From a candidate division Zixibacteria bacterium SM23_81 (GTDB taxonomy: Bacteria > SM23-81): a DNA stretch of 62,718 bases. The notes beneath the pieces are model-generated. The model was not told the DNA's origin, did no database searches, and saw only the letters and a program-made list of their open reading frames with translations. The position numbers and the translations under genes are program-made. This document shows positions 9,101 to 49,260 of the stretch, in pieces. The stretch is from positions 1 through 62,718 of the forward strand of contig LJUY01000012.1 of NCBI GenBank assembly GCA_001304015.1, written 5' to 3'. Numbering within the stretch: the stretch's first letter is position 1; each line of letters begins with the position of its first letter.

Positions 9101-12100
9101 GCCGTAGTGCAGGATGTCCTTGAACTCCACATGATCGATGGTCAGGTTGCCGCCAAATCCCTCGCGGCCGCCACCACTGTCGACCATGATGCCGTCGCGC
9201 CCCGGTTCATCTTCTCCGTCGACCACGCAGTTGCGCAGCGTAAATCCCTTCACCGCTTTGTGCTGATAGGCGTTCCCGATGACCCGATAGCCGGTCTGTT
9301 GACCCTGGATATAGAGGTTCTCCAGCGTCACGCCGGAGATCTCTCCGCTGGTGTTGGAGAAGATCACACCCCCGGTGACCACCGAAAGGGTGGTGTCATC
9401 GCTGGACAGACTGAAGGCATCGGCGTTGCCGATGACGGTCAGGTTCAAGAGCGTATCGGCAAACTCGATGATCTCATCGTAGACCCCCGGCTCCACCTCC
9501 ACGGCGCTGCCGGCGACCATCTCGACACCCTCGGTGATCCGACCGCCGGCGCCGGCCTGGGCGCTGTTGTCGTCCACGTGCAGGTGGGAGAAGTCGCCCT
9601 GAAAGCCAGGATCGCCGGAGGTGTCGGTGCTGTCATGCAGCCAGGGGGTATAGTCGGCCATTCCCGACATGAGGGCGCCGACCGTCGCAGGCTCATTGGA
9701 TCCCCACCAGTTGCCGGAGGCGTCCAGCGGCTGGGTGCATTCAGAGGCGTCCACGGCCATCGTGTTATTGGTGAAGCTGTTCTCGAAGATCACGTTTCCG
9801 GTCGGCTCGACGTAGCTTCCGAAGTCCACCAGCAGGCCGATGTTGTTATCGTGAATAAAGTTATTGGTCACCATGTTGCCATCGGCCGAGTAGTAGGGCC
9901 AATAGGCGGTGGTGATGCGGATGGCCCGTGTGTCGGGATCGGAGACGTCCGAGATCTCGTTGTTCTGGATCAGCACGCTGTCGGCCACCACCAGGATGCC
10001 GTTGCTCCCGAAGGGTCCCTGGATGGTGCAGCCGGTGACCTCGGCGCCGGTGACCGGCTTGCCGCTGTCCTCGAAGACGGCCACGCCGCTCCCCCCGGAC
10101 CCGCTGATGGCGCAATTGCGCACCCGGACATTGGTGGAGCGGTCGATGGAGACTCCAAAATAGCCATTGTCGTGGAAGTCGCTGTCGGTGATCAGAACAT
10201 CATCGGCGAAGGGCGGCCCGGCGTTATAGACGTTGACGCCGTATCCGGTCCAGCCGAAGGACTGGATATTCTCGATGGTGACGCCGTCGGCCTGGCGCAC
10301 CTGGATGCCCATGCTGCCCGACTTGGTGCTGCCGGTGCCGTCGAAGATGCAGTCCCTGACGGTGACGTTGCTGACCCATGCGGACAGGCCGATGTACAGG
10401 TCCTTCTGGACCACGGCGGGGTTGTTCTGCTTGACAGTAAAGCCCGACATGGTCACGCCGCTGGCGTCGATGGCCATGCCGGAGGATGACGTGGTCATAA
10501 TAAATGTGGTAGTCTTGTCCTCACCCAGTAGGGCCAGTTCCTCTTTGTTCACGTTAGGATTCTCGTCATAGACGCCGCCCTTGACATTGACGGTATCGCC
10601 GGAGGAGGCCGCGTCGATGCCCTCCTGTATGGTGGAGCTGTTGGACGTGTTCAGATACCAGACCCATGGATCGGTGTGCGGGTCGCCCAGGTAGTCCCCG
10701 CCCCACCATGGAGAATAGTCGGCCCCGTCGGTGACCGCGTCTCCGGTTCCGCCCGTGTTGCTGGCGGCGTGATAAGGGCCGCTGTCATCGCCCCACCAGT
10801 TGCCGGTGGCGGTGACCATGTCGGTCACCAGGGCCGTGTTCACCTGCAGGCCGTAGTTGGCGTTTCCGGTGATCGTGTTGCCGGTCACCCTGACTCGTTC
10901 GGTGGTCAGAGTGTGCTTGTCGATGTTCACCCCGGCATCGGCGCTGCCGGTGATCGTGTTTCCTGTGATATCGATGTCCTGCCCCTTGATGCTGATCCCA
11001 TAGCGCAGAGAGTTTGTCAGAAGGTTATCGCTGATGGTTATGAAGGTGGTGTTGCCCCAGAAAGAGATGGCGTCCTTGTCACCGTCGAAGGTGTTTCCGG
11101 ATACGGTGATATGATCCAGGTTGCTTCCGGCGATGCCCTTGGCGTTGATGAACCCATTGGCCGTGTTGCCGGTCACCGAACAGCTGCTGCAGGAGGTCAG
11201 GTACATGCCCGACTCATCCCCGGCCGGGGTGCTGCCCAGATGGAACTCGTTATCGGCGAGAATCACACCGGTGGCCACGTTGGGCTGAACGATGACGCCG
11301 TTTTTGTTGGCCGTGACGCGGTTGCGCCGGACGACCAGGTTGTCGTTGCCCTTGTAGAGAACGGCCAGGTAGCCGTCCATGATGTTATCCTCGATGGTCA
11401 GGTCATCATCCCAGCAGCGGATGACGGACTCGTCGGCATAGTGGAAGGAGGGGCTACCGATGAGGGTGAATCCACCCAGGGTCACATCCGTCACCCCGCC
11501 GGGGATCTCCACGGCCACGTTGGGGTTCACCGCGGAGAGCCCGGATATGTCCAGGACAGACTCCACCGCAGGATTGGTCCGCGCGCCGGTTTGTACGGGA
11601 TCTACCCCGTACTGCGCCCCCCTCAGGTCGAGGGATTTGTTTATATTGATCCGCTCGGCGTACGTGCCCGCCTGGACATTGACGATGTCGCCGGGCGAGG
11701 AGGCGTCGATGCCGGCCTGGATGGTGGAGGTGGTGTTCAGATGCCAGGTCCACGGCGAGGTGTGCGGGTCGCCAACATAGTTAGCTCCCCACCAGGGCGA
11801 GTAGTCGACGTCATCGCTGACATCGTCGCCCGATCCTCCCGTATTGGTGGTGGCATGATAGGGTCCGCTGGCATCCCCCCACCAGTTGCCGGTGGCGTCG
11901 ATAGTCTGGGTTGCGTCCGCATTCTCCAGCCCGAAGGCGAGGTTGTCAGTGATGCTGTTCCCATTGATGATGGCGTTGAGGAAGCCGCTGTTGGGATTGC
12001 CATAGTTGATGGGGACATAGACGCCCTGCGCCCCGGCCGCGGTGTGGTTGGAGATGACGTTCCCGGTAATGGTGTTGTCGGTTGTCGCATACCAAGTATA

Positions 12101-13774: not shown

Positions 13775-14278
13775 TTCGCTCCCCCCCGAAAAGACCACAG
13801 TTTCAACGCAATCTCTCTCCAAAAACTTCAATTTGAACAATTATCTCATGATTCAATCTCCTCTTTACGTATTTGTGATTGATGTCGATTCTTCAGCACG
13901 ATTGGCAATTTAACTGCTCATTTAAGTCCTTTGTACTTTCATAAAAGGAAGATTTATGCACCTTGGCCTAAATTTTTATTTTACTTTATCTTGTTTGGCA
14001 TATCTCACCGGCAAAACCATTTTACCAGATTTAAGTTTTTTTGTCAAGACTTTTTTCAACAATTTTGAACTTTTTTTATTTATTTCCCACTTTTTTCCTG
14101 GGATATAATCCTCTTTTGTGTGCCCTCAATTAGGTTGAGGAAAAGTATTTGGGCTGGGGCTGATGCGAGAGGGGCCAAAAAGAGTTTGCTCTCTGTTAAT
14201 TTTTCCTTGAAATAATCACTCTCATACCATAACTTACCTCTTGAATCGTCGGCCAGTAGCCTCTTCAAGGCGCTTCCC
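13775..14278. other. Intergenic region between divergent genes
   Basis: This AT-rich 504-bp spacer separates the minus-strand giant gene from the plus-strand nitroreductase. It holds the giant gene's promoter and its long leader. I see no convincing gene, tRNA or terminator. A 78-codon minus-strand reading frame at 14080-14316 runs into the nitroreductase gene and looks spurious. Confidence 0.6.
14019..14047 (-). promoter_or_regulatory. Sigma70-type promoter of the giant gene
   Basis: On the minus strand TTGACA (14042-14047) is followed after 17 bases by TAAAAT (14019-14024). A start site near 14012 would leave an unusually long leader of about 240 bases before the giant gene's ATG. The layout, including GG before the -10 box, matches the promoter at 24640-24668. 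Confidence 0.75.
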
Positions 14279-28284: not shown

Positions 28285-28908
28285 CTATCCCTCGGCCCGA
28301 ATGATGTCCTTAATCCTCATCAGTCGAGAGAGATTGGAGCGTTCCATCTCCGAGAGCTTCATGGTGATGTAACGGATGGTTTCCACTAAGTTAGGAATTA
28401 AGGTGTACTCCAAGGCATTCACCCGCCTTCGAGTCTTCTCGATCTCATCGGCTAAAAGCTGCATGGTTTTCTCCGCCTCGGCCAGCTTCAAACTCTGCTC
28501 CAAAACGCCCTCCAGAAATTTCAGGGAGATGTCCAAATCCCCCGAGGTGTTGGCATACCCGTAACAACGAATACTGCCCTCTACGACCGTCTCCATCACG
28601 GGAATCCTCACGTTCATGAGCTGCCGCTGGCTCACCTTCAGGCGGAGCTTCATGCCTGGAAATGAGATGGCCTCCTCCACCAGCTGGTCCGACATGGTTG
28701 AGCGAGCCAATAGGAAACTCTGAAAGGCCGCGTGCAGCTGCCCCTCCACCTGCGCTCGCATGCCCCGTACCGATTTGACCAGCTCCATGAACTGACGCAT
28801 CAGCTCATCTTGCTTGTCCTTCAACAATTTATGTCCCCGGCGCGCAATGGCCAGCCGCTTTCGCAGCCGAAGCAACTCCATCCGGGTGGCGTTGACAGAG
28901 AGCCTCAT
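28285..28908 (-). CDS. atpD: V/A-type ATPase subunit D
   Basis: A 207-residue subunit D, the central rotor shaft of the V1 head. The start RLSVNATRMELLRLRKRLAIARRGHKLLKDKQDEL is the family signature. The rest is a long two-helix coiled coil, with the C-terminal strand EKTRRRVNALEYTLIPNLVETIRYI, also typical. It is the last gene of the operon, ten bases after subunit B, and is followed by a terminator. The length is normal. The name atpD here means the V-type D subunit, not the F1 beta subunit. Confidence 0.95.
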   Translation of the reverse strand: MRLSVNATRMELLRLRKRLAIARRGHKLLKDKQDELMRQFMELVKSVRGMRAQVEGQLHAAFQSFLLARSTMSDQLVEEAISFPGMKLRLKVSQRQLMNVRIPVMETVVEGSIRCYGYANTSGDLDISLKFLEGVLEQSLKLAEAEKTMQLLADEIEKTRRRVNALEYTLIPNLVETIRYITMKLSEMERSNLSRLMRIKDIIRAEG

Positions 28909-28918
28909 GAGCCCTTTC

Positions 28919-30355
28919 TTAATCCTCTTCAGTGACGGGTTCTAACTTCTGATCCGATTTCTCTTCCTGCCGATCCTCTTTTTTGAATTTAGGCATGTAT
29001 TTATCCAGCCATTCCTGGCGAATCCTCTTCAGCTCACCGCTAGGAAAAACCGACAGGAGTTCCCAGCCTAAATCCAAGGTCTCTTCTATGCTTCGATTCT
29101 CATCTTCTCCCTGGCTGACGTAGCGTTCCTCAAAAGTGTCGGAGAAATCGTAATACATTCTGTCCATATCTGTGAGAGCTGCCTCCCCCAGAATCACGGC
29201 CAATTCCTGGGCTTCCTTGCCCCGGGCGTAAGCAGCAAACAGCTGGTTGAACACGTCCGAGTGATCTTCCCTGGTCTTGCCCGAGCCAATTCCTTTGTCT
29301 TTTAAACGAGACAGAGAGGGCAGAACATCGATGGGAGGCATAACTCCCTTTTTGTGAAGCACCCGTGACAAGATCACCTGACCCTCGGTGATATATCCGG
29401 TTAAGTCTGGAATGGGATGAGTCTTGTCGTCTTCGGGCATGGTCAGAATGGGAATTTGTGTGATGGATCCCTGTTTTCCTTTAATTCGACCCGCTCGTTC
29501 ATATACCGTAGAAAGGTCCGTATACAGATATCCCGGATAACCCCGGCGACCGGGAATCTCTTTTCTTGCGGCGGAGATCTCCCGCAGCGCCTCACAGTAG
29601 TTGGTCATGTCGGTAAGAATAACCAGGACGTGCATGTCTCTCTCGTAAGCCAGATACTCAGCCGCGGTTAGGGCCATGCGCGGGGTGGCGATGCGCTCAA
29701 TGGCCGGGTCGTCAGACAGGTTCATGAACAGCACCGCTCTCTCGATGGCTCCGCTTTCCCGGAAGTCGGAGATGAAATAATTCGCCTCCTCAAAAGTAAT
29801 TCCCATGGCGGCGAAAACCACGGCAAAAGCCTCACCCTCTCCTCGCACCTTGGCCTGGCGAGCTATCTGCGCCGCCACTTGATTATGGGGCAGGCCGGAG
29901 CCGGAAAAAATAGGCAGCTTCTGCCCCCGCACCAACGTGTTCAAGCCGTCTATGGCCGAAATGCCCGTTTGGATGAACTCCGAGGGGTACAGCCGCGCGT
30001 AGGGATTGATGGGATTGCCGTTGATGTCTACTCTCTTGTCCGGTAAAACTTTGGGACCATCGTCTATGGGGCGACCCAGCCCGTCGAAAACCCGTCCCAA
30101 GATGTCCATAGACAATCCCAGCTCGATGCCCTTTCCCAGAAACCGTACTCGGCTCTTATAGACATCGATGCCCGTAGATCCTTCGAAAAGCTGCACCAAT
30201 GCTTTGTCTTCATTGACCTCAAGAACCTTACCCCTTCTCTGTTCACCATTGGGCAGCTCTAGCTCTACCAGCTCCTCGTATTTAACGCCCTCCACTTCCT
30301 CCACCAGCACAAGCGGGCCGGAGATCTCTCGAATGGTTAGATATTCTTTACGCAT
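28919..30355 (-). CDS. atpB: V/A-type ATPase subunit B (non-catalytic)
   Basis: A 478-residue subunit B of the V1/A1 hexamer. The N-terminal barrel [15 protein letters not shown] leads to [16 protein letters not shown] and [20 protein letters not shown]. The site of the P-loop reads SGSGLPHN rather than GxxxxGKT, as expected of the non-catalytic B subunit. Later come [33 protein letters not shown] (conserved) and [19 protein letters not shown]. Its first codons overlap the end of subunit A by eight bases, so the A:B ratio is probably kept by coupling. Slightly longer than many B subunits because of a charged C-terminal tail. Confidence 0.97.
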
Positions 30356-32120
30356 GCTCTTTCGTTACCTCCTCGATGAGCCCTTGCATTTGTGTTTCCA
30401 TGTGTTTCTCCACGGCATCCATGCTATCCAGCTCTTTCTCCGAAATATACTTGGAGCGAGCGATTTCCTCATTGGCCGAAAGGCCGGCCATTTTCTCCAC
30501 CGTGACGCCCTTCTTAAGAGCTTCTAGAGACAATTGATGTGTTTGCAAGATCATTTTGAGCAGACGAAATTGCTTCACCATGGAGGAGTACGTGTCCACC
30601 TCGTGAAAGGCATTTTGGTGGAGGAAATCCTCCCTGATGGATTTGGCGGTCTTCAAGATAAGACGGTCCGGCTGTGACAGAGATTCCACGCCCACCAACT
30701 TGACCATCTCCTCCAGCTCTGCTTCTTGTTGGAGCAACTTCATGGCCTCATCCCGCATGGTCTCGAAGTTCTCGTCTACATCTTCCTTGAGGTGCTGACT
30801 AATATTGTCGTAGTAAAGGGAATAACTATTCAACCAGCTGATAGCCGGAAAATGTCGTTTAAAGGCCAACAGATCCTCCAGGCTCCAAAAGACCTTAACA
30901 ACCCGTAGAGTGGCCTGAACTACTGGATCTGAAAGATCCCCGCCTGGGGGAGAAACGGCACCTATAACCGTAAGGGAACCCTGCCGATTATCGCTGCATT
31001 CGCAGACTACTTTGCCAGCCCGCTCGTAAAACTCGGCCACTCGGGTCCCAAGATACGCAGGGTAGCCTTCCTCGCCAGGCATCTCCTCCAGTCGACCCGA
31101 GATCTCACGCATAGCCTCGGCCCAGCGAGATGTGGAATCAGCCATGACGGCCACAGAGTAGCCCATGTCGCGGAAGTACTCTGCACAGGTTATGCCCGTG
31201 TATACCGAGGCTTCCCTGGCTGCGACGGGCATGTTGGAGGTGTTGGCGATGAGCACCGTCCGCTTCATCAGAGGCTCACCGGTTCGTGGGTCCTTCAGCT
31301 CGGGGAACTCCGTGAGCACATCGCACATCTCGTTACCACGCTCTCCACAGCCGATATAGACCACAATATCAGCATCGGCCCACTTGGCTAGCTGATGTTG
31401 AATGACGGTCTTGCCACTTCCGAAGGGACCGGGGACGCAAGCTGTTCCACCTTTGCCAACTGGGAAAAAGGTGTCCAGAACTCGCTGCCCGCTGTACAGG
31501 GGCTCCGTAGGGATAAGCTTTTTTCGATAGGGCCTCGGCCTTCGAACCGGCCACCGCTGCATCATGGTCACATCCACCGAGTCTCCCTCGGCCTTCAGCT
31601 TCGCGATGGGCTGTTCCACGGTGAACTTTCCGGTCTCGATCTTCTCAACTTTTCCCGAAAGCCCTGGAGGAACGAGAACTTTGTGCGTCACCACGGGGGT
31701 TTCCTCCACTGTCCCTAAAATATCTCCTCCCGTCACCTTATCTCCCACCTTAACCGTCGGCTTAAAGGCCCACTTCTTCTTCCTATCCAGACCCGGAATG
31801 TCAACTCCTCGCGCGACGTAGTCGCCCACTTGGTCTCGGATCACACTCAAGGGCCGTTGAATACCATCGTAAATAGCGCTCACCATGCCTGGTCCGAGTT
31901 CCACGCTCAGGGGCATTCCCGTAGATTCCACCGGCTCACCGGGACCTAATCCAGCGGTATCCTCGTAAACCTGGATGGAGGCCAGGTCGCCGCGAAGCCC
32001 GATGATCTCGCCGATGAGCTTTTTCTCGCTCACCCTGACCACATCGTACATGCGGGCATTTTCAATCCCATTGGCAACCACCAGCGGGCCTGAAACCTTC
32101 ACGATGACTCCTTGCTTCAT
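30348..32120 (-). CDS. atpA: V/A-type ATPase subunit A (catalytic)
   Basis: A 590-residue catalytic subunit A. The N-terminal barrel has [11 protein letters not shown], followed by the 'non-homologous' insert region typical of A subunits (residues 110-200). The P-loop is [20 protein letters not shown]. Then come [21 protein letters not shown] (Walker B region), [32 protein letters not shown] and the conserved [15 protein letters not shown]. It hydrolyses or makes ATP, depending on the direction of ion flow. It starts directly after the stop of subunit F and overlaps subunit B. Confidence 0.97.
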
Positions 32121-32453
32121 CTATCCCTCCTCACCATCCGACAAGATATCTGCTCCCACCGCTTTCTTGACGACTCCCCGAATCCGCTCCGCCCCAGTTC
32201 CCAATGAGCCCTTGCTGTTGGGAATGAGCACCACGCTGGGAAGCGGCTGAAAGGCGACTTTTTGTATTTCCTCCTCTAGCCCGGCAGCTAGCGGCTCTGT
32301 GATGAATATCACCGCATAATCCCCTCGGATCAACTTCTCGAGGATCTCTCTGGCCTCATCCACCTCTGCCGTGGGAAAAACGCTCACCCCAACGGCTTTA
32401 AAACATAATACGGAGTCTTTGTCTCCGATGACGGCGATATTAGACGTATTCAC
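32121..32453 (-). CDS. atpF: V/A-type ATPase subunit F
   Basis: A 110-residue subunit F of the central stalk. IAVIGDKDSVLCFKAVGVSVFP is the family's N-terminal Rossmann-like strand-loop-helix, followed by YAVIFITEPLAAGLEEEI and VVLIPNSKG near the end of the domain, all characteristic. The length is normal. It overlaps the end of subunit C by 14 bases and ends immediately before subunit A. Confidence 0.93.
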   Translation of the reverse strand: MNTSNIAVIGDKDSVLCFKAVGVSVFPTAEVDEAREILEKLIRGDYAVIFITEPLAAGLEEEIQKVAFQPLPSVVLIPNSKGSLGTGAERIRGVVKKAVGADILSDGEEG

Positions 32454-33453
32454 TGGGTAGACGCTCCTTGATTTTCTCCTTGGGCAAATCGTTGAGCTTG
32501 CCCACTAACGTTGCCCTTACAGCCCTTATTTCGAATTCTTTAAGCAGAAGATAGACCACCAAGGGCTCCACACCAAAACTTGTTTCCCGGCTCTTTTTCA
32601 ATAATTGAATGACCAAATCGTCGCAGCTTCTCTCCAGAGCAGCGAAGCTCTTCTGGACCTTCAACTGAGAAATCCCCTCGGCGATGGCTTTGCCATAGGG
32701 CGTTCGCATAAAGGTTTGTGAAAGAGTATCCAGAGGCTCTTCCCTGATCTCCCGGAAAAAACCCGCATCCAGGCTGCCTCCTGGAAGCAGGTCCCGTTCC
32801 ATCAGCCTTGTGCTCTCCTCCAGCCAGCGAAGTCTCAAAAAAGACTTGATATTGAGGAGGTCTACCTCCCACGTCATCCAAGTCTGAAGAAAATGATTTT
32901 CCATTCGACGCAAAGCTTCCGTCATGGCACTATATTGTTCCCGGTCCACGGCTACGTCCAAGTCCTGAGGAGAGCGACTTTCGGCAAAAGCAGCTTCCGC
33001 TGCCAACATGGCCCGTGCCAGCCTTTCCGGCAGCGCACGCGTCTCCTCTCCCATCACGGCTTGAGCCAAATTCTCCAGGGAAATGAGACCCATGTCGATA
33101 TACGCTTGCTCCAGGTCTTGCTGTGAGTGCTTTCCCTTAAGCAGCGCTTTGAGGTTGTGATAGTCATAGCGCTGTCGAAAGAACGTCGATAGTTCCTCAT
33201 CTTCTGACAGCTTTTCTAAAAGTAACAGCGCTTCCCTCTGCTCGGCCATTAAGACTGATTCATAATCCGTCGTCTCCTCCGACACCGGGTAGCCCATCTC
33301 AGCCAACAAACGAAGGGCCTGGGGGAAATCGGGGGCATCCAGCAGGCGGGAAAAATCCGCCTTGGTCAAGAACTTCGTCTCCAAGGCTCTGACGCGACCC
33401 ACGGCGTAGGCATACCGAGTGTCGTCCTTGAAGGTGATGACTGAGAGGTCCAT
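32440..33453 (-). CDS. atpC: V/A-type ATPase subunit C (d-like socket)
   Basis: A 337-residue C subunit (d subunit in eukaryotes), the socket that joins the central stalk to the membrane ring. All-helical with the YAYAVGRVRALETKFL N-terminus typical of the family. Internal repeats follow (FRQRYDYHNLKALLKG and WEVDLLNIKSFLRLRWL, the paired motif of the three-fold repeats), and the C-terminus is FGVEPLVVYLLLKEFEIRAVRATLVGKLN. ATG at 33453 is preferred over an in-frame TTG at 33471 because GGCGGTGG precedes it. Its end overlaps subunit F. Confidence 0.93.
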   Translation of the reverse strand: MDLSVITFKDDTRYAYAVGRVRALETKFLTKADFSRLLDAPDFPQALRLLAEMGYPVSEETTDYESVLMAEQREALLLLEKLSEDEELSTFFRQRYDYHNLKALLKGKHSQQDLEQAYIDMGLISLENLAQAVMGEETRALPERLARAMLAAEAAFAESRSPQDLDVAVDREQYSAMTEALRRMENHFLQTWMTWEVDLLNIKSFLRLRWLEESTRLMERDLLPGGSLDAGFFREIREEPLDTLSQTFMRTPYGKAIAEGISQLKVQKSFAALERSCDDLVIQLLKKSRETSFGVEPLVVYLLLKEFEIRAVRATLVGKLNDLPKEKIKERLPSEYV

Positions 33454-33502
33454 GATAGAAGCCACCGCCAAATAGAGAATATTTCTCGCATAAAAAAGTT
33501 CT

Positions 33503-34099
33503 TCATGAAAACAATACTTCAGCTACCTGAGGTTCCAATTCCTCCCGAACGCTCTCGAATAGTGAATTTAGGGAACAGTTTACCTCCATCTTTCCCCGGC
33601 GCAGGATGAAACCTCCTTGAAAGTCTCGATTCTCTTTAACGATTCTGAGACCTCCTTTCTTGCCCGCCTTTACCAGCCGATTGTTGGCCTCCTCCAATAG
33701 CTTCTCGCCTATTTTACGGTCATCGGTGTCGGAGAAGATGACCTCCTCATCGCCCACCTCCACCACCTTCATCAGGAGTTCGAGAATAAATCTCTCGTAC
33801 TTCTCTCCCTTTAAATCTGTCAAACGCTTTAATGCCTTGTCAAAAACCTGCTGTATAAGCCTTTGTTTCTGGTCTAGAAGCGCTTTTCGCAGCTCCAACT
33901 CAGCTGTGGCGATATCTTTCTTCCGGCGATCTTGCGCTCTCCGCTTGGCCTCTTCCTCGGCCTCTTTCTCTATGGCCTTGGCCTGTTCCCGCTGCTCGGC
34001 CTCGACTTTCTTCGCCCTCTCGGCAACCTGGGCCTCTATCCGAAGCACCTCGGCCTGGGCGTCGGAAAGGATCTTCTCCGTAATCGTCTCCACAGACAT
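33503..34099 (-). CDS. atpE: V/A-type ATPase subunit E (peripheral stalk)
   Basis: A 198-residue subunit E. The N-terminal half is a long charged coiled coil rich in A, E, K and R (residues about 10-95), and the C-terminal half is a small alpha/beta domain. It forms the peripheral stalk with subunit H. Beginning AGGAG before the ATG at 34099 supports the start. Sequence is poorly conserved, so the assignment rests on the coiled coil, the length and its position between K and C. Confidence 0.9.
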   Translation of the reverse strand: MSVETITEKILSDAQAEVLRIEAQVAERAKKVEAEQREQAKAIEKEAEEEAKRRAQDRRKKDIATAELELRKALLDQKQRLIQQVFDKALKRLTDLKGEKYERFILELLMKVVEVGDEEVIFSDTDDRKIGEKLLEEANNRLVKAGKKGGLRIVKENRDFQGGFILRRGKMEVNCSLNSLFESVREELEPQVAEVLFS

Positions 34100-34147
34100 A
34101 AACGACTCCTCCTGCTCTCATCAAACCAATATAACGCTTTTCTCTTC

Positions 34148-34738
34148 TTACCCTCTTATGCTGATGAGGAGCAGAATGGTGATGAGAAGACCCAAAACGG
34201 CGTAGAACTCGACGAACACGCCTAAAACCAGCGCCTTCCCAACCTCTCCTGGTTGTTTTGTGGTCATGTTAACTCCCGAGGCACACACCTTTCCCTGCTG
34301 TATCGCTGAGAACAAGCCTGCGAAGGCCACGGGCAGACTGGCGTAAAAGAACTGCCATCCCTTCGAAACAGTCAAAGCGCCCGTCTCGCCCGCCATGATG
34401 CCGCTCCAGAGCATAACCAGAAATCCAGCCACAAAACCATAAATGCCCTGAGTTCCAGGAAGAGCCGTTAGCATCAAGTACTTTGCAAAATCCTTTGTGC
34501 CCTCGCTCATGGCCCCGAGACTGGCTCTCCCCGCATAACCTATTCCCACCGCTGACCCGATGCCTGAAAGAATTACCGCCAGCGCCGCACCGGCGATGCA
34601 CAACGTCACCGGGCCGAAGCGAAACCAGTCGCCAACGCCAGCGCCTTCCGTTTGGGCGAAGGCCGGAGCAGCAAGAAATAGGACCACCAAGGTGACGATG
34701 GAAACGCCCAAGATTCTCCTCAACCTCACCGAGTACAT
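34148..34738 (-). CDS. atpK: V-type ATPase proteolipid subunit K
   Basis: A 196-residue proteolipid of the duplicated (four-helix) type. ATG at 34738 follows AAAGGGGGG; an earlier in-frame start is unlikely. The first 29 residues (SVRLRRILGVSIVTLVVLFLAAPAFAQ) look like a cleavable signal segment, leaving two hairpins. The ring glycine helix is ILSGIGSAVGIGYAGRASLG. LPGTQGIYGF in helix 2 has Thr and Gln, SAIQQGKV has Gln in helix 3, and VEFYAVLG gives the single carboxylate in helix 4. This set (L, T, Q, Q, E) resembles the Na+ site of the Enterococcus hirae NtpK ring, so sodium coupling is plausible but not proven. Confidence 0.93.
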   Translation of the reverse strand: MYSVRLRRILGVSIVTLVVLFLAAPAFAQTEGAGVGDWFRFGPVTLCIAGAALAVILSGIGSAVGIGYAGRASLGAMSEGTKDFAKYLMLTALPGTQGIYGFVAGFLVMLWSGIMAGETGALTVSKGWQFFYASLPVAFAGLFSAIQQGKVCASGVNMTTKQPGEVGKALVLGVFVEFYAVLGLLITILLLISIRG

Positions 34739-34775
34739 TGACCCCCCTTTCCCTGAGTGGGTGTCCACTTGGTTT

Positions 34776-36779
34776 TTATGAAAGTTCATCCTGTTTTTTC
34801 CGCCACAACACATACTGACCTCTCTTTCGCAGAGGATTAAATGTCTCTCCACCTCCTTCGTAAAATTTCGAGAAAAATTCCACAAAATTCAGCCTGGCCG
34901 TGTGCACGAATGCACCCAGACAGCATATCACTATGTAGGCCAAATGAGCAACGAGGAACAAAACGATGGCCATGATGATGCCGATAAAGGGAATCTTCAT
35001 CAACATACCACCCAGCGTGTCGATCACCCCGGCAATGACGGCCGTGGCCAGCCCCAAAGCCACCAAACGTGAATATGACAAGATGTCGCTGAAAATGCCT
35101 ATCACACCGTATATTCCACCCAACCCTTTACCCACCCATGCGAAGGGATTCTTGGTCCCGATGCCACTGAACAGAAAAATTCCCCCCAAACCTGCCACCA
35201 GGGAGTACGTTCCCAGTTTGGCCAAGCTTTCCCCAACTGGGGATAAAAAGTTCAACATGGAGATGCCCACTCCCACATCTGCCAACAGCCAGGGGCCGTG
35301 CATAAGCACCGATTGCAGCGGCTGTTGCTCTCTGATCCCCGTGAACATCTTTAGCGTAAGGCCGACGAAGAGGTGAACGACCCCAAGTACTATGGCAATC
35401 TTGAAAAAGGTCATGGCATCTCCGATGGGATCGAAGAGCTTCACCGCATAGACGGCCTTAACCACCGGGGACTCTGGGTCGAGCTTGCTCCAATCGATGC
35501 CGAAATAGCCCCCGGTGATGGCGCCGGCCACAATAGTGACCAGGCCGCTCCAAAAAAGCAGCTGAAACAACTTCCGAGTTCCTGGTCCTAATCGGAACTT
35601 CCTCAAGAAAACAAACGATAGCACAGCGAGTGTGAGCCCATACCCGGCATCTGTAAGGCATAGCCCGAAGAATACTGCGAAGAAGGGCGCCAGAATCGGT
35701 GTGGGATCAAGTTCGGTATATTTCGGCCTTCCATACAGATCGATGACCATTTCAAAGGAACCGGGTACTGGTTTGTTTACCAGCTCCACCGGGGGGCTCT
35801 CTCCGGGCAATGGATCGACGGCGGTCACCGAAAGAGGACCAAATGCATTTTCCAGATGCTTTTGCAACCCCTTAAACTCCTTTTCTTTAACCCATCCCTC
35901 CAGAAGAGAAACCCGCTCTGTATTGGCCATCTCGAATTCCGCACGCTTTTTCTCCAGTTCATCGGCTACGTGCTCTGCCAAGACCATAAGCTTAGGACCT
36001 TCTTTTACGAACTTTCGACTTTTTTTGTGCAAGGCCTCAAGCGCCTTTTGAAGTTCTAACAACTCCTTTTCCAGGCGCTCAACCGCTTTTGGGGGAGTAC
36101 CCTTCAAGTTAGGAAACCTCTTCTCGGCGAATTCCATCTCCTCCAAGATGCGCATCACCGCTTCTGTCTCTAGCCGGTGGTAGAGAAGCAGACAGTTCTC
36201 CTCCATGCCATACGTTCCCACCAATTCCAGTTGATACGCCTGAACTTCTTCCTTTAGCCTTTGGGACAGGGAGGAGAATTGCCCCATGGGCACCGAGCCG
36301 ATGAGCATCTCGCTGCTCGCCGTGGCAGCCAATTCTTCCAGGGGGATATCAAGATCAGCCCACCCCCCCAATTGTTCTACAAGGCTCTTCTTTTCGCTGA
36401 GCTCCGAGGTCAACCTGATCCTCTCTCGCTCTAGCTGGCGACAGGCTTGAACTATTTGTTGGCCATCGAACTCATCAACTAGTTTTCGATATTCTTCCTC
36501 ACTTATCTCAACCCTTGGTGATGAGAGCTTTTTCAATCCACCCAACTTCTCCTCAAAGGGCTTTAGATACGCCAGCGCAAACTCCAATCCTGAAAGAAAC
36601 GCCTCCAATTCTTGAACGTCGGTTTCCTCTCCAAAAGAGATCCCCTCGGGTAGTTGTGATAAGCCTTCCTTAAAACTATTCACGTGCACCAACCCAATTT
36701 TCTGGATCTCTTCCAATAGATCCTTTTTCACAGAAGCATGGAAGAGAATCTGGACTTTCTGCATCCTGGCTACGGCCAA
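34776..36779 (-). CDS. atpI: V/A-type ATPase subunit I (a-like)
   Basis: A 667-residue subunit I, equivalent to subunit a of the membrane stator. The N-terminal half (residues 1-340) is a cytoplasmic coiled-coil arm that joins the peripheral stalks. The C-terminal half has about seven to eight membrane helices: FFAVFFGLCLTDAGYGLTLAV is the characteristic first, with GYGL, and DILSYSRLVALGLATAVIAGV carries the essential Arg of the ion half-channels. The last helices are AHLAYIVICCLGAFVHTARLNFVEFFSKFYEG, the family signature. It is 15 bases after subunit H and 37 bases before subunit K. Confidence 0.96.
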   Translation of the reverse strand: MAVARMQKVQILFHASVKKDLLEEIQKIGLVHVNSFKEGLSQLPEGISFGEETDVQELEAFLSGLEFALAYLKPFEEKLGGLKKLSSPRVEISEEEYRKLVDEFDGQQIVQACRQLERERIRLTSELSEKKSLVEQLGGWADLDIPLEELAATASSEMLIGSVPMGQFSSLSQRLKEEVQAYQLELVGTYGMEENCLLLYHRLETEAVMRILEEMEFAEKRFPNLKGTPPKAVERLEKELLELQKALEALHKKSRKFVKEGPKLMVLAEHVADELEKKRAEFEMANTERVSLLEGWVKEKEFKGLQKHLENAFGPLSVTAVDPLPGESPPVELVNKPVPGSFEMVIDLYGRPKYTELDPTPILAPFFAVFFGLCLTDAGYGLTLAVLSFVFLRKFRLGPGTRKLFQLLFWSGLVTIVAGAITGGYFGIDWSKLDPESPVVKAVYAVKLFDPIGDAMTFFKIAIVLGVVHLFVGLTLKMFTGIREQQPLQSVLMHGPWLLADVGVGISMLNFLSPVGESLAKLGTYSLVAGLGGIFLFSGIGTKNPFAWVGKGLGGIYGVIGIFSDILSYSRLVALGLATAVIAGVIDTLGGMLMKIPFIGIIMAIVLFLVAHLAYIVICCLGAFVHTARLNFVEFFSKFYEGGGETFNPLRKRGQYVLWRKKQDELS

Positions 36780-36794
36780 TGAATTCCCCCGTAT

Positions 36795-37106
36795 CTATTG
36801 GTAAAATCTGTTCAGCACAATCTCCAGCGCTTTTTCCATTCTCGCCTCGGCCCGCTCTCTCAGTGCCTTCTCTTCCTTCTTGCCCTTTTCCTTGAGTTTT
36901 AACACCGCTTGCTGAGCTTGCTGAGAAGCCTGAGTAATTTTCTTTTCGATAAGTTTCTTTGCCTGAAGCCTGGCCTTCTCGATGGCTTTATTCCGGTCTT
37001 TCTCAGCTGTCAATAGGCTTTTATCCCCTTCCGCCTGAGCTTTGCGAAGAAGATCTTGGGCCTGTTCTTCAGCACGCCGGATCTCTTTTAGAGCCTCTAA
37101 TGCCAC
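36795..37106 (-). CDS. atpH: V/A-type ATPase subunit H/G (peripheral stalk)
   Basis: A 103-residue coiled-coil protein rich in K, E and A (ALEALKEIRRAEEQAQDLLRKA to EKALEIVLNRFYQ). GTG at 37106 is preferred to a GTG at 37124 because AAAAGGAG lies seven bases upstream and the family starts with MALEALKEI-like sequence. It pairs with subunit E to make the peripheral stalks. Being first in the operon matches the order of the Thermus and archaeal clusters. DnaA boxes lie just upstream. Confidence 0.86.
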   Translation of the reverse strand: MALEALKEIRRAEEQAQDLLRKAQAEGDKSLLTAEKDRNKAIEKARLQAKKLIEKKITQASQQAQQAVLKLKEKGKKEEKALRERAEARMEKALEIVLNRFYQ

Positions 37107-37192
37107 ATCAGCGCTCCTTTTCACATGTTCTTTGCTGAGAGCCTTACCTCAACCTTAAGCCGAGAGGGCAACACCAAACTATGCCTTTCCTT

Positions 37193-37298
37193 TGTGGATA
37201 ACCATCTATGAGTTTGTGAGATTATTTCCTCAACTTCCTTTGCAAAGAAGCCTTACCGAGTTATCCACGGCCGGTGCCGAGTTATCCACATATCCACA
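37193..37298. promoter_or_regulatory. Cluster of DnaA boxes in front of the V-ATPase operon
   Basis: TGTGGATAA at 37193-37201 (reverse complement of TTATCCACA), TTATCCACG at 37261-37269, TTATCCACA at 37282-37290 and ATATCCACA at 37290-37298. CCGAGTTATCCAC is repeated at 37256-37268 and 37277-37289, exactly 21 bp apart (two helical turns). The cluster lies between subunit H and bactofilin, about 10-12 kb from dnaA. It could titrate DnaA or regulate the ATPase operon; neither is demonstrated. Confidence 0.75.
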
Positions 37299-37317
37299 TT
37301 ACGGACTTGTTGGGCGT

Positions 37318-37794
37318 CTAAAGCCTTTTCTCGCCAGGTGCTGGCCCAAGAGGTTTTGCATTTCGCGGCTTGCTCACAGAAATCTCAGGTTTCTCCTCCA
37401 CCCTTGGAGGCACCTCCTTTTCCTTCCTCTCCTCTTTCTCCCCCTCCTGCATGGAACATCTTCCATGAAATACCCCACCCTCTTTGATGACAAAAATGCG
37501 CGTTGTTACGTCTCCAAGGATGGTGGCCTTGCTTTCCAGCTCAACTCTTTGAGATGCCACCAGGTTCCCCTTGATTTTCCCGCCGACAACAGCCTCTTTG
37601 ACCTGAACCTCTCCGTCGACAACCCCTGTTTTCCCTATCGTCAGTACTTCAGAGGTGGTTACCTTCCCTTTGATATGACCATCGACACGGACGTTCCCTT
37701 CCATGTTGATATTTCCGACGATCTTGGTGCCCTTCGCTATAACGGTGCTTAGTTTTGTGTCCTCCGACCGCATTTCACTCTCCTTGCCAAACAT
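37318..37794 (-). CDS. Bactofilin
   Basis: A 158-residue bactofilin (DUF583) polymer-forming cytoskeletal protein. Residues about 15-115 form the right-handed beta-helix of short hydrophobic rungs (STVIAKGTKIVGNINMEGNVRVDGHIKGKVTTSEVLTIGKTG...). The C-terminal tail is charged and rich in E, K and P. AAGGAGG precedes the ATG. Bactofilins scaffold cell-wall enzymes; the M23 peptidase gene immediately upstream (25-base gap) is a frequent neighbour in other bacteria, and this pair probably acts in cell shape. Confidence 0.94.
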   Translation of the reverse strand: MFGKESEMRSEDTKLSTVIAKGTKIVGNINMEGNVRVDGHIKGKVTTSEVLTIGKTGVVDGEVQVKEAVVGGKIKGNLVASQRVELESKATILGDVTTRIFVIKEGGVFHGRCSMQEGEKEERKEKEVPPRVEEKPEISVSKPRNAKPLGPAPGEKRL

Positions 37795-37819: not shown

Positions 37820-38656
37820 TCAAGGTCCTAAATAGGTCCGAGGGTCTAAAGAAAGATCATCCTTTCTGATTTCGAAATGGAGATGAGGCGCAGAACTCTT
37901 TCCTGTGCTACCTAAATGCGCGATAATTTGACCCTGGGTAACAAAATCTCCCACCTTCACCAGGATCTCAGAACAATGGCCGTAAAGAGTGCTGAGGCCA
38001 TTTTGATGATCGATGATGACCACCAAACCAAGATTTTTATCCCACTCAGCCAAGGTCACATTCCCCGATGCGGCGCTGAGGATCGGCGTTCTCTGGGGTC
38101 CGGCGATATCTATCCCGGTGTGCTTCTTCTCTCTTCCAGGAAGAATTTCATTAAATTCGGCCGTTACCCACCCCCTGACAGGCCAGAACGAGGGGATCCT
38201 GGATGTAGCCACATGTGCCGTATCCTCCAACAGCGGATCTATGAACCCGGCTCGCAAAACCTCAGACGTGGGCTGGTTCATCTCTTCATCAGTTAGAAGA
38301 ATCGATTGATCTGACACAGATATGCTACCCCCACTCGGACCTTCATCGCCTTCCAGACCTGCCAGGGCATAGAGCTGTTGCCGCACTTTTTGCAAACCAG
38401 TGAGCTCGCTCTCTAGCTCGGCCACCCTCTGCGTTTGAGCCCTCAAGATAGCGTTCTCGGCCTCTAGCCTGTCTGCCTTTCTGGCCTTCGAGAACGCCTT
38501 CTGATGAACGATCGCTATGTAGGCATAGGAACCCAAAAAAAACAAACATATTGCCGCAAACACATAGAGCAAACCACGGCGTACGCGCAATGTATAGGTT
38601 TTGGAGATGTCTTCTGGAACAATGATAACGGTGAATGCCTTCTTCTCTTCAGTCAT
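37820..38656 (-). CDS. M23 family metallopeptidase with membrane anchor
   Basis: A 278-residue peptidoglycan hydrolase-like protein. ATG at 38656 opens MTEEKKAFTVIIVPED, the usual start of such bactofilin-linked M23 proteins. One membrane helix follows (LLYVFAAICLFFLGSYAYIAIV, residues about 27-48), then a coiled-coil stalk (LEAENAILRAQTQRVAELESELTGLQKV). The C-terminal LytM domain has HTGIDIAGPQRTPILSAASGNV with the first zinc His and Asp, and HLGSTGKSSAPHLHFEIRK with the HxH motif. It should therefore be catalytically intact. Its first codons overlap the small upstream gene by eight bases. Confidence 0.93.
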   Translation of the reverse strand: MTEEKKAFTVIIVPEDISKTYTLRVRRGLLYVFAAICLFFLGSYAYIAIVHQKAFSKARKADRLEAENAILRAQTQRVAELESELTGLQKVRQQLYALAGLEGDEGPSGGSISVSDQSILLTDEEMNQPTSEVLRAGFIDPLLEDTAHVATSRIPSFWPVRGWVTAEFNEILPGREKKHTGIDIAGPQRTPILSAASGNVTLAEWDKNLGLVVIIDHQNGLSTLYGHCSEILVKVGDFVTQGQIIAHLGSTGKSSAPHLHFEIRKDDLSLDPRTYLGP

Positions 38657-38873
38657 TTGCTTTTCCCGTTTCTCTAAAATATTGGCCTTTAGAAGAATGG
38701 ACCAATAACATCTCTTCGCGCAGAAAAGCCACTTCTTTGATGTAAGACCTTCGCGCGAGCTCTTTACCGGATTGGATCTTCTCAATGCTTCGCGCCGCTT
38801 TATGTCTTACTGTAATGAAACGCTTTCTTAATAAAAAGTAACACTCTCCAGTCGCCCTGTCCTTAATAGACAT
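38649..38873 (-). CDS. Possible 74-residue leader protein
   Basis: A possible gene of 74 residues, unrecognised. It begins MSIKDRATGECYFLLRKRF and is basic and mostly helical, with no membrane segment. Its ATG lies about 15 bases after the -10 box of a strong promoter, so the message would be almost leaderless. Its stop overlaps the M23 start (ATGACTGA), as in coupled genes. Those two points are the only support; it may instead be an untranslated leader. Confidence 0.35.
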   Translation of the reverse strand: MSIKDRATGECYFLLRKRFITVRHKAARSIEKIQSGKELARRSYIKEVAFLREEMLLVHSSKGQYFRETGKAND

Positions 38874-39034: not shown

Positions 39035-39892
39035 CTACCTTACCCCAATAACTCCCAATATCCTTTCGAGATCCTCATCAGAGTAAAATTCGATCTCCAA
39101 GCGGCCCTTTTTGCCCGCCCGCTTTATACGCACCGCCGTCCCTAAAAACCTCTGTAGCCTCTCTTCCAGCTCTCTCAACTCAGGTGATTTCTGAGCCCGA
39201 GCTACTCTAATTCGAGGAGCTTGCCTCTTCTTCCTTTGAACAGCGCGCTCCACCTCGCGGACAGAGAGGCCTCCTCCAATGATTCTCTCAGCTAAGGCCA
39301 CTTGATCTTCTTGGTTTTGCAAAGCTAATAGGGCTCTGGCATGGCCTGCGGAGATGGTTTTTTGAACTACTCGCGACTGCACCTCAGCCGGCAATTTCAA
39401 TAATCGTAATGCGTTGGCAACAGAGGTGCGATCTTTTCCCACTTTCTGGGAGACCTCTTTCTGCGTGAGACCGCAATCCTTAATCAGCTTCTCATATGCC
39501 CTGGCCTCGTCAATGGGGTTCAGATCCTCCCGCTGTAGGTTCTCCACAAGGGCTAATTCGAGCATTTCACTATGATGTGAAACGTCCCAGACAATTGCTG
39601 GAATCTTTTTCATTCCAGCCAATTTAGCTGCCCGGACCCTTCTCTCTCCGACTATGAGTTGAAAATCATCGCCCACAGATCTGACAACCACCGGTTGCAA
39701 GATGCCCTTCTCGCTGATAGATCTGGACAACTCTTCCAATCCATGCGCATCAAAGTCACGTCGGGGCTGGTCTGGATTAGTGGAAATCTTCTCAAGGGGT
39801 ATGTCGACTAACAGGTTCTTTTTCTTGTCGAATACCAAAGATACGTCAGGTATGATGGCGCTTATGCCCTTGCCCAACGCCTTTCTAGCCAT
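39035..39892 (-). CDS. parB: Chromosome partitioning protein ParB
   Basis: A 285-residue ParB/Spo0J CTP-dependent DNA clamp. The N-terminal CTPase domain has [18 protein letters not shown] and [12 protein letters not shown] (CTP phosphate loop). It is followed by the parS-recognition helix-turn-helix ([25 protein letters not shown]), and the ParA-contact and dimerisation part at the end. It should load at the two GTTTCACGTGAAAC parS sites 4 kb upstream (43277-43330). Its first codons overlap parA by eight bases. Confidence 0.97.
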
Positions 39893-40646
39893 TTGACATC
39901 ACTTCCCTTGCGAGGTCCATATAGTTTTCGGCACCCGTCGATAGGATGTCATAGAGGATAATGGGCTTGCCAAAGCTCGGCGCCTCACCAAGCCTGACAT
40001 TCCGATTAATGACAGTCCTAAAAACCTTCTTGTTGAAATACTCCCTGGCCTCTTGAGCTACCTGTTTAGAGAGGTTAAGTCGGTTATCGTACATCGTCAA
40101 GAGGACACCTTCTATTTTCAGGTTAGGGTTCAGGTGCTTTTGCACCAGGCGAATGGTGTTCAATAATTGACCCAATCCCTCCAAAGCATAGTATTCACAC
40201 TGAATAGGTATCAACACCGAGTCGGCAGCCGTGAGCGTGTTCACGGTTAGCAATCCTAACGACGGGGGACAATCTACGAGAACATAAACGTATTCCTGAC
40301 GAACCTCTTCCAGTGCGTTCATCAATTTTCGTTCCCTGGCCATTATGTTCACCAATTCGACCTCTGCACCCACCAAGCGCACATGAGATGGAACCAGATC
40401 AAGATAAGGTACTCGAGTAGCGCATATGACCTCTCTCATTGGCTTTTCCTGAATTAAAACTTCGTATACGCTCCCATTTATCTCTTGCGGTGTAAAACCC
40501 AGTCCGCTGGTACTATTGGCTTGAGGATCTATGTCCACCAACAGCGTTCTTCTCTCCACCACGGCGAGACAAGCGGCCAAATTCACAGCGGTGGTCGTTT
40601 TCCCAACGCCGCCTTTTTGATTCGCCACAGCGATAACCCGACCCAT
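39885..40646 (-). CDS. parA: Chromosome partitioning ATPase ParA (Soj)
   Basis: A 253-residue ParA-type P-loop ATPase. The start [25 protein letters not shown] contains the deviant Walker A with its signature Lys. [14 protein letters not shown], the switch II region [18 protein letters not shown], and [17 protein letters not shown] follow in the standard order. It binds DNA non-specifically and drives origin segregation with ParB. No N-terminal helix-turn-helix is present, so it is of the chromosomal (Soj) kind. It lies 27 bases after rsmG in the same direction. Confidence 0.97.
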
Positions 40647-43276: not shown

Positions 43277-43292
43277 AGTTTCACGTGAAACA
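43277..43292. promoter_or_regulatory. parS site 1
   Basis: AGTTTCACGTGAAACA contains the 14-bp palindrome GTTTCACGTGAAAC; only the first base departs from the TGTTTCACGTGAAACA consensus. It lies between mnmE and mnmG. Confidence 0.93.
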
Positions 43293-43314: not shown

Positions 43315-43330
43315 AGTTTCACGTGAAACA
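43315..43330. promoter_or_regulatory. parS site 2
   Basis: A second copy of AGTTTCACGTGAAACA, 38 bp after the first, with six further bases identical (TCTCTT). The pair is the only parS match noticed in the window. Confidence 0.93.
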
Positions 43331-47408: not shown

Positions 47409-47626
47409 TGTGGATAACTTGTGCACAACTCTTCTGGGTTTCGTGGTCCTCTCCACAACTTCCTTTTTTCCACATTCCACGTATTTTCATCTTCGAAAGC
47501 CATTCATTCACAGCTTATTCCGCGTCCTCTATTGATAACTCCGCTCTTTTTCTGGTCCTAAGTGCTACTTCTCTGCCCCTTAATTTTGGACCTTCCCAGA
47601 AAAATTGTGGATAACTTTTATCCACT
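47409..47626. promoter_or_regulatory. DnaA boxes in the dnaA leader
   Basis: TGTGGATAA at 47409-47417 and 47606-47614 are perfect boxes on the minus strand. TTATCCACT at 47618-47626 matches at eight of nine positions. TGTGCACAA near 47421-47429 is weaker. The whole 47207-47654 stretch has no gene; it holds the divergent rpmH and dnaA promoters and these boxes. Confidence 0.75.
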
Positions 47627-47654
47627 AGACAAGAGTTGCGCGCGAGATTTCCAA

Positions 47655-48995
47655 GTGAATCAATCAAATCTTTGGTCTCAATGTCTGCAGACCATTCAGG
47701 AAAAAATACCTCGGCAGAGCTTCGAAACATGGCTACGACCGACTGAAATCTTGTCCTTCACGGAAGATACTATAGTTATAAAAGTCCCAAATGCTTTCTT
47801 CTCAGAATGGATTGAACAGCATTATGGTCATTTCATTGTCAACGCCGTTCGAGAGTTAACCGGTCACTCTCCCACCATCACCTTTTCAGTCTCCTCAGAG
47901 AGGGGTACTTTCCTCACCAACATCTCCCCGCAGAGAGAAGCGACTTCCTCGAACCAGATTCGCCGCACAAGTCCCGCCCGGTTGAATTCTCGATATACTT
48001 TTGACAATTTTGTTATAGGTGATTGTAATCAGTTTGCTCATGCTGCATCGCTTGCTGTTGCCGAAGCTCCCGGAAGAACAGCCTTTAATCCTCTTGTCAT
48101 TTATGGTGGCGTCGGTTTGGGCAAGACGCATCTCATCCAAGCTATTGGCCATTTTGTTGAGGAACATGCCACAGCCCAGAGTTTAGTATATGTCTCCTCC
48201 GAGAAGTTCACCATCGATTTCATCGAATCCATACAGAACAACAAAACCGCTCAGTTTAGTAATAGATATCGTAATAAAGACGTCCTTTTAGTTGACGACA
48301 TCCAATTTTTCTCTGATAAGGAGCGAACGCAAGAAGAATTCTTTCATACTTTCAACACTCTACACCAAAAGGGAAAGCAGATCGTTCTTTCATCAGACCG
48401 TCCCCCAAAGGAAATAAGGGGTCTCGAGGAACGTCTCCTCTCTCGCTTCCAGTGGGGACTCATCGCAGACATCCAACGTCCCGATTTGGAGACCAGGATC
48501 GCTATTCTTCAAAAAAAAGCTCAAAATGATAATCTCTCCATCCCCACCGAAGTAACCACCTTTATCGCCAACAATATCACCACGAATATACGCGATCTTG
48601 AGGGCGCTGTTATTCGCTTACTTGCTTATTCCTCGCTAACTGGCAAAGATATCTCCCTAAGCCTAGCCCGCGAGGTTATCAAGGATCTGGTGGTCAAAAA
48701 TAAAAGCGAGAAGTCTGTGGCCTACATTCAGAAAGTTGTAGCGGAGCACATGAATATTCCTATTCATCTGATGAATGCGAAAAAGAAGACCAAAGAGGTT
48801 GCCTTGGCCCGACAGATCGCCATGTACTTGACCCGAGAATTGACCAATTATTCTCTGACTACCATAGGATCAAAATTCGGAGGACGCGATCACTCCACGG
48901 TGATCCATGCCTGTCGAACGGTAGAGCAACTGATAGAAAATGATCATTTGGTCAACACAACAGTAAAGGAACTCAGCAGAGTCCTCAGTGTATAG
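47655..48995 (+). CDS. dnaA: Chromosomal replication initiator DnaA
   Basis: A 446-residue DnaA. The GTG at 47655 is chosen because NQSNLWSQCLQTIQEKIPRQSFETWLRP is the usual domain I start; the upstream in-frame extension overlaps DnaA boxes and is not family-like. Domain III begins RYTFDNFVIGDCNQFAHAA, then Walker A GGVGLGKTHLIQAIGH, Walker B LLVDDIQFFSDKERTQEEFFHTFN, and the sensor/arginine finger GLEERLLSRFQWGL. Domain IV ends with the DNA-binding signature GRDHSTVIHACRTVEQL. It initiates replication at the DnaA boxes near 49 kb. The length is normal. Confidence 0.98.
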   Translation: MNQSNLWSQCLQTIQEKIPRQSFETWLRPTEILSFTEDTIVIKVPNAFFSEWIEQHYGHFIVNAVRELTGHSPTITFSVSSERGTFLTNISPQREATSSNQIRRTSPARLNSRYTFDNFVIGDCNQFAHAASLAVAEAPGRTAFNPLVIYGGVGLGKTHLIQAIGHFVEEHATAQSLVYVSSEKFTIDFIESIQNNKTAQFSNRYRNKDVLLVDDIQFFSDKERTQEEFFHTFNTLHQKGKQIVLSSDRPPKEIRGLEERLLSRFQWGLIADIQRPDLETRIAILQKKAQNDNLSIPTEVTTFIANNITTNIRDLEGAVIRLLAYSSLTGKDISLSLAREVIKDLVVKNKSEKSVAYIQKVVAEHMNIPIHLMNAKKKTKEVALARQIAMYLTRELTNYSLTTIGSKFGGRDHSTVIHACRTVEQLIENDHLVNTTVKELSRVLSV

Positions 48996-49046
48996 ATCTG
49001 TGTACAATTTGTAGATTTCATTTCTCGGGGCTTTATTATCGTACAC

Positions 49047-49260
49047 TGTGGATAATACGTTTACAATTGAACCCTTTATTCACAGGTTTATTCTCACATT
49101 CATCCTCTCACCGAACCTCTTCCATCCCAGAATTAGCTTCAAATTTTCCCTTGTGAACACTTGTTTATCCACAAGTCCACAGCTCCTACTATAACTACTA
49201 TTTTTTAAACTTAACAAGTTGTAAAATACATCTTGTGAACATCGAACTCTGTTTCCCTAT
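49047..49260. other. Probable chromosomal origin oriC
   Basis: The dnaA-dnaN spacer (48996-49421) has no gene. It contains perfect DnaA boxes at 49047-49055 (minus), 49076-49084 and 49165-49173. The last is followed by GTCCACAGCTC and then CTACTATAACTACTA at about 49188-49202. That is a run of DnaA-trio elements (TAG on the other strand), leading into an AT-rich TTTTTTAAACTTAACAAG tract suited to unwinding. This order matches the known basal unwinding systems of bacterial origins. Exact limits are not defined. Confidence 0.85.

Follow-up and report, generated by a model that had tools for sequence, protein, structure and literature searches.

The gap between a bactofilin gene and a V-type ATPase (V-ATPase) operon in a candidate division Zixibacteria bacterium holds a cluster of four DnaA-type boxes, and boxes recur at the same gene junction in a second phylum. 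We conclude that the cluster is probably a genuine site of control that connects DnaA with the V-ATPase genes or with replication timing. The reading that we favor, holding its chances to be about even, is that the cluster acts as a DnaA-controlled leader or promoter of the V-ATPase operon, similar to that of mioC in E. coli. DnaA-box clusters outside oriC have been studied mostly in a few model bacteria, and the junction is apparently an undescribed and widely conserved target for such a cluster. Its parts are ordinary DnaA boxes; what is unusual is the fixed target across phyla. In a partial literature search, no publication was seen to connect DnaA with a V-ATPase and bactofilin, a weak sign of novelty.

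The box cluster and its flanking genes

The window analyzed here is a stretch of 62,718 nucleotides from a 3.07-Mb metagenome-type assembly in 99 contigs (henceforth G000). The initial annotation had marked four DnaA-like boxes within 106 bp, and this was confirmed: the stretch contains four DnaA-type 9-mers, two exact and two with one mismatch. They lie in the following context:

37107–37317, no strand: junction (intergenic gap) of 211 bp, from the bactofilin stop to the V-ATPase subunit H start; holds the cluster
37193–37201, minus: DnaA box 4, exact TTATCCACA; nearest the V-ATPase start codon, with 86 bp between it and the first gene of the operon
37261–37269, plus: DnaA box 3, TTATCCACG, one mismatch; exact TTATCCACA in the relative G001 (L020)
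37282–37290, plus: DnaA box 2, exact TTATCCACA; 21 bp (two helical turns) from box 3
37290–37298, plus: DnaA box 1, ATATCCACA, one mismatch; in tandem with box 2
36795–37106, minus: V-ATPase subunit H-like, first gene (TIGR02926 below cut-off, E 2.8e-5)
34776–36779, minus: V-ATPase I
34148–34885, minus: V-ATPase K/c
33503–34099, minus: V-ATPase E
32440–33471, minus: V-ATPase C/AC39
32121–32453, minus: V-ATPase F
30348–32120, minus: V-ATPase A
28919–30355, minus: V-ATPase B
28285–28908, minus: V-ATPase D
37318–37794, minus: bactofilin (PF04519, 9e-27), upstream neighbor on the same strand
37820–38785, minus: M23 peptidase, part of the conserved block upstream of the junction
39035–39892, minus: ParB, part of the same block
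39885–40646, minus: ParA, part of the same block

Boxes 1 to 3 face the same way and box 4 is opposed, 59 bp from box 3. The four boxes lie 86–191 bp upstream of the V-ATPase start codon. Boxes 1 and 2 share one base, giving a direct repeat of the octamer TATCCACA. A repeat spaced 21 bp apart had also been described around two of the boxes. The spacing is indeed exact, with copies of CCGAGTTATCCAC at 37256–37268 and 37277–37289 that contain boxes 3 and 2, but the CCGAG prefix differs in the relative G001. The 13-bp repeat was thus ruled out as a functional unit; judged from the two sequences, the conserved unit is the 9-mer DnaA box and the longer repeat is incidental.

The density of boxes exceeds chance at several scales. 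Within the window, 26 sites lie within one mismatch of TTATCCACA, versus 10.4 expected, and first-order Markov simulation of the window, repeated 300 times, never produced three or more such sites within 100 bp. The genome-wide count and clustering check proposed in the initial annotation gave 98 TTATCCAC and 67 TTATNCACA in G000 (51 and 21 for the reversed patterns), and the expected number of equally tight three-site clusters is about 5e-4 (Poisson). Among the matches listed, three TTATCCAC within 100 bp occur nowhere else in G000, the dnaA locus being next densest, and the junction is the densest exact-box cluster of the 3.07-Mb genome. Several near-TTATNCACA 9-mers therefore stand outside oriC at above chance density, as in a non-origin DnaA-box cluster, and the box cluster is real and beyond chance.

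On the minus strand, the V-ATPase operon occupies 28285–37106, with its genes in the order H, I, K, E, C, F, A, B, D. For subunit H, the start at 37124 in the mechanical ORF list probably lies too far upstream, because the GTG at 37104–37106 is preceded by AAGGAG (AAGGAG-N7-GTG) and both elements are kept in L020. A consensus scan of the junction gaps in G000 and G001 yielded no sigma-70-like promoter, and a terminator scan of the same gaps gave no match. Short blocks other than the boxes are conserved between window 37107–37220 and L020 4585–4700, namely CTCA-N-AAACT-N-ATAGAT immediately ahead of box 4 and GTTTGG-N-GTTGCCCT beyond it, and are candidates for a promoter or for sites of other proteins. 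The par-bactofilin pairing within the block has a precedent, since in Myxococcus xanthus the bactofilin gene bacM lies directly 3' of parAB (PMC5703909). Two near-perfect parS sites (AGTTTCACGTGAAACA) lie 38 bp apart at 43277–43292 and 43315–43330, between mnmG and mnmE, and the relative carries two at the equivalent location (L104 13048 and 13086). Elsewhere in the window, a 4574-aa open frame (116–13840, minus) with right-handed beta-helix, NosD and SBBP beta-propeller repeats encodes a giant repetitive protein, probably surface or secreted.

Conservation of the junction in two phyla

The same-family comparison consists of one genome, G001 (contig DAOVRJ010000032.1, L020), whose subunit I shares 69% protein identity with that of G000. 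Its boxes, at L020 4510, 4518, 4539, and 4607, have the same spacing (8/21/68 bp) and orientations as those of G000. On alignment, 34 of 35 box positions are identical, compared with 93 of 175 (53%) in the remaining gap (Fisher p 8e-8). The 17-mer TGTGGATATGTGGATAA spanning the tandem boxes occurs once in each genome, both times at the junction only, and tight clusters of exact TTATCMACA in G001 are confined to the junction and the dnaA locus. This comparison indicates that the four boxes are held in number, orientation, and spacing by selection in G000 and G001.

Lack of conservation in sister genomes had been named as an outcome that would speak against the site. While G001 keeps it exactly, the two genomes from the other family of the phylum (G002 and G003) lack it. 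Their gene order is kept, and the V-ATPase lies about 8 kb from dnaA; bactofilin, however, directly adjoins the V-ATPase genes, and there is no box cluster because the gap itself is missing. Upstream of dnaA, these genomes carry five or six boxes (L102/L103/L105/L106), more than G000 and G001 have there.

In a second phylum, that of G006, 17 genomes were searched and 15 had a subunit I match. Bactofilin precedes the V-ATPase genes in all those with the upstream side present, mostly with M23 and parAB before it. The junction boxes are distributed as follows:

Four boxes: G006
Three boxes each: G062, G053, G051
Two boxes each: G061, G060, G052, G054
One box each: G055, G056
No boxes, open junction gap: G057, G058
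No boxes, closed junction gap: G047, G048, G050

A further genome, G046 (CP070758.1), the sole representative of its group, has a junction of about 240 bp with zero boxes; its block lies at 3.15 Mb and dnaA at 393 kb, a distance of about 2.3 Mb. In every carrier, the V-ATPase start codon lies roughly 10–190 bp downstream of the boxes, which invariably occupy the bactofilin–V-ATPase junction.

Pooling 20 genomes with this gene pair, we counted 31 boxes in 2755 bp of junction versus 31 in 95,814 bp of flank, a 35-fold higher density, and none of 200 permuted 9-mers reached 31 junction boxes, although these are not 20 independent events, as kinship within families inflates the counts. Box number and order differ between families, whose gaps cannot be aligned with one another, such that the boxes recur on diverged backgrounds. 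Chance, or shared ancestry without function, might be entertained given that kinship and given that the window's family comprises two genomes only; the simulations, the 53% background conservation, and the recurrence in families with unalignable gaps make chance very unlikely, and we regard this explanation as extremely improbable.

The boxes of the second phylum often read TTATCAACA, which we take as the DnaA box of that phylum because it is also found directly upstream of dnaA, often as an inverted pair 2–3 bp apart. In G054, the inverted pair TTATCAACA-N3-TGTTGATAA occurs at the V-ATPase junction as well as at dnaA, and in G006 the tight exact-box clusters are those of the dnaA locus and the junction, on different contigs. 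The G006 and G060 junctions each have two boxes separated by 2 bp, a "double box" of the kind favored in vivo by E. coli DnaA (PMC11317965). The spacing in G000 and G001, with a one-base overlap of boxes 1 and 2 and 21 bp from box 2 to box 3, is unlike this preferred gap of 2–3 bp.

The same boxes could instead belong to a structured RNA leader, in which boxes 2 and 3, being complementary to box 4, could form alternative hairpins with it, or be recognized as GTTATCCAC by a protein other than DnaA. TGTGGATAAC and GTTATCCACA are complementary over 10 nt, and the pairing is present in the predicted fold. However, the fold energy is no better than that of shuffled sequences (z 0.10), there is no Rfam match, and the junction boxes of G052 and G053 all face the same way, so that no such hairpin is possible there. 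The motif is moreover of the same class as at the dnaA loci, which tells against another regulator too, and we consider both variants very unlikely.

The replication origin and the junction

The origin of G000 lies about 10 kb from the junction:

47409–49173, no strand: dnaA locus/oriC, with boxes at 47409, 47606, 47618, 49047, 49076, and 49165 and the GC-skew minimum

Cumulative GC skew keeps falling past 37 kb, without a turn, to a minimum at 48–50 kb, where gene directions diverge as well. The oriC boxes that the initial annotation had located at 49 kb are present, but the set was incomplete, as boxes also occur at 47.41–47.63 kb upstream of dnaA. The dnaA ORF is called from a GTG at 47562 and relatives align only from about residue 28–35; on this alignment, the start is probably near 47640, which would place the boxes at 47606 and 47618 upstream of it. 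DnaA domain IV is intact in G000 (PF08299; FGGRDHSTVIHA).

The junction shares its box consensus with this oriC and none of its other features. In the dnaA–dnaN gap, a box is followed by the run CTACTATAACTACTA and there is an 80%-AT stretch, whereas the junction reaches at most 66% AT per 50 bp and, judged by eye, has no trio-like run after its boxes (a pattern of three consecutive [CT]TA triplets also misses the interrupted run of oriC). Since the skew turns at about 49 kb and the junction is without an AT-rich stretch, the junction cluster is not the origin, and the earlier suggestion of a second unwinding unit is not supported.

Could it be a second, relic, or alternative origin? The boxes cluster beside parAB, and G006 shows a local dip of cumulative GC skew at its junction. 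This dip is weak, though, and in G051 and G058 the skew turns about 5 kb upstream of the junction instead; together with the unturned skew at 37 kb and the missing AT-rich element and trio-like run in the window, this makes such an origin extremely unlikely. The junction was likewise rejected as the true oriC of the second phylum, because local skew has no consistent turn there. In G051 (near 4.8 kb of contig C38, L147), with dnaA not detected, and in G058 (near 33–35 kb of contig C199, L154), with dnaA on another contig, both gene direction and GC skew reverse at a point upstream of parA by a few kb. These turns may mark an origin that does not adjoin dnaA.

Proposed control of the V-ATPase leader, possible titration, and known systems

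DnaA is an ATP-binding switch whose activity depends on ATP. From the observed boxes, conservation, and gene linkage, we infer DnaA binding, a promoter, and the sign of regulation. On sequence evidence, binding of DnaA at the junction is very likely, and the chance that transcriptional control is the function for which the cluster was selected appears about even. DnaA, probably as DnaA-ATP, would load on the same-facing boxes 1 to 3 and on the opposed box 4 near the V-ATPase start. Bound DnaA would then modulate, and most likely repress, transcription of the V-ATPase operon, such that expression of the ion pump would be tied to the replication cycle through DnaA. Lying only about 10 kb from oriC, the site would be duplicated early and would also sequester some DnaA.

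A DnaA-controlled V-ATPase promoter is the best supported of the three readings offered by the initial annotation, because two phyla place the boxes directly upstream of the V-ATPase genes, and the cluster is present only where the operon has its own leader. On the other side, with no sigma-70-like match in the gap, all transcription of the operon might come from genes further upstream. The open gaps without boxes in G057 and G058 and the variation of box number and order between families also count against control, and the box-free junction of G046, far from dnaA, fits titration better.

Titration is the main rival, although we judge it somewhat unlikely. It holds that, as in B. subtilis and Streptomyces, origin-proximal boxes soak up DnaA after their duplication and restrain re-initiation, the V-ATPase gap being merely a convenient place beside parAB. 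The cluster is indeed near oriC, about 10 kb from dnaA in G000 with the skew minimum at 48–50 kb, parAB is a constant neighbor of the junction, and in G046, where the block is about 2.3 Mb from dnaA, the boxes are missing. Near-oriC box clusters curb untimely initiation in B. subtilis and S. coelicolor (PMC4585315), and a titration role was recently argued for E. coli (PMC12371093). Yet the boxes are confined to the bactofilin–V-ATPase junction while the other gaps of the block have none, the G006 cluster is on a contig other than that of dnaA and thus outside its immediate neighborhood, and G002 and G003 have the block near dnaA without a cluster. Control and titration are compatible, and both may hold.

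More tentatively than for control at the junction itself, we propose that a DnaA switch on the V-ATPase could be an old feature of the par-bactofilin-V-ATPase block, kept in at least two phyla. If so, the replication initiator would directly set how strongly a rotary ATPase is expressed, in time with the firing of the origin. In two phyla that are known mainly through metagenome assemblies, one and the same gene junction joins the initiator, the segregation genes (parAB and bactofilin), and a V-type ATPase, and offers a concrete test case for whether ATP-dependent DnaA controls an energy-coupling enzyme. The natural comparison of open gaps with boxes, open gaps without, and closed gaps could separate titration from gene control.

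Among known systems, datA of E. coli resembles the junction in that it packs several boxes into a short non-coding region close to oriC. It requires an IHF-binding site between essential DnaA boxes. The gaps of G000 and G001 contain no IHF-like site within one mismatch of WATCAANNNNTTR, which is the E. coli consensus, and the box spacing differs. DARS1 and DARS2 likewise have several boxes outside oriC with one opposed, but the DARS core is made of three boxes with I and II head-to-head (PMC10380432), and the sole opposed pair in G000 and G001 is 59 bp apart rather than an adjacent head-to-head pair plus a third box. A datA- or DARS-like catalytic site altering the nucleotide state of DnaA, as the initial annotation had considered, would be consistent with several boxes of predicted high affinity in a short non-coding stretch, with boxes 3 and 4 opposed; we hold it to be quite improbable, and what is left of that proposal is a titration cluster of the Bacillus/Streptomyces type. 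In B. subtilis and Streptomyces coelicolor, a strong-box cluster lies outside but near oriC as it does here (PMC4585315), while the junction cluster is fixed at one gene junction in two phyla, also where dnaA is on another contig. Finally, the DnaA-repressed mioC and dnaA promoters of E. coli differ from the junction, which has the V-ATPase operon as its target, another box spacing, and no consensus promoter match. As at the junction, however, several boxes lie within and about the leader of an origin-proximal transcription unit, and DnaA represses the promoter of mioC, near oriC, through five boxes (PMC4585315).
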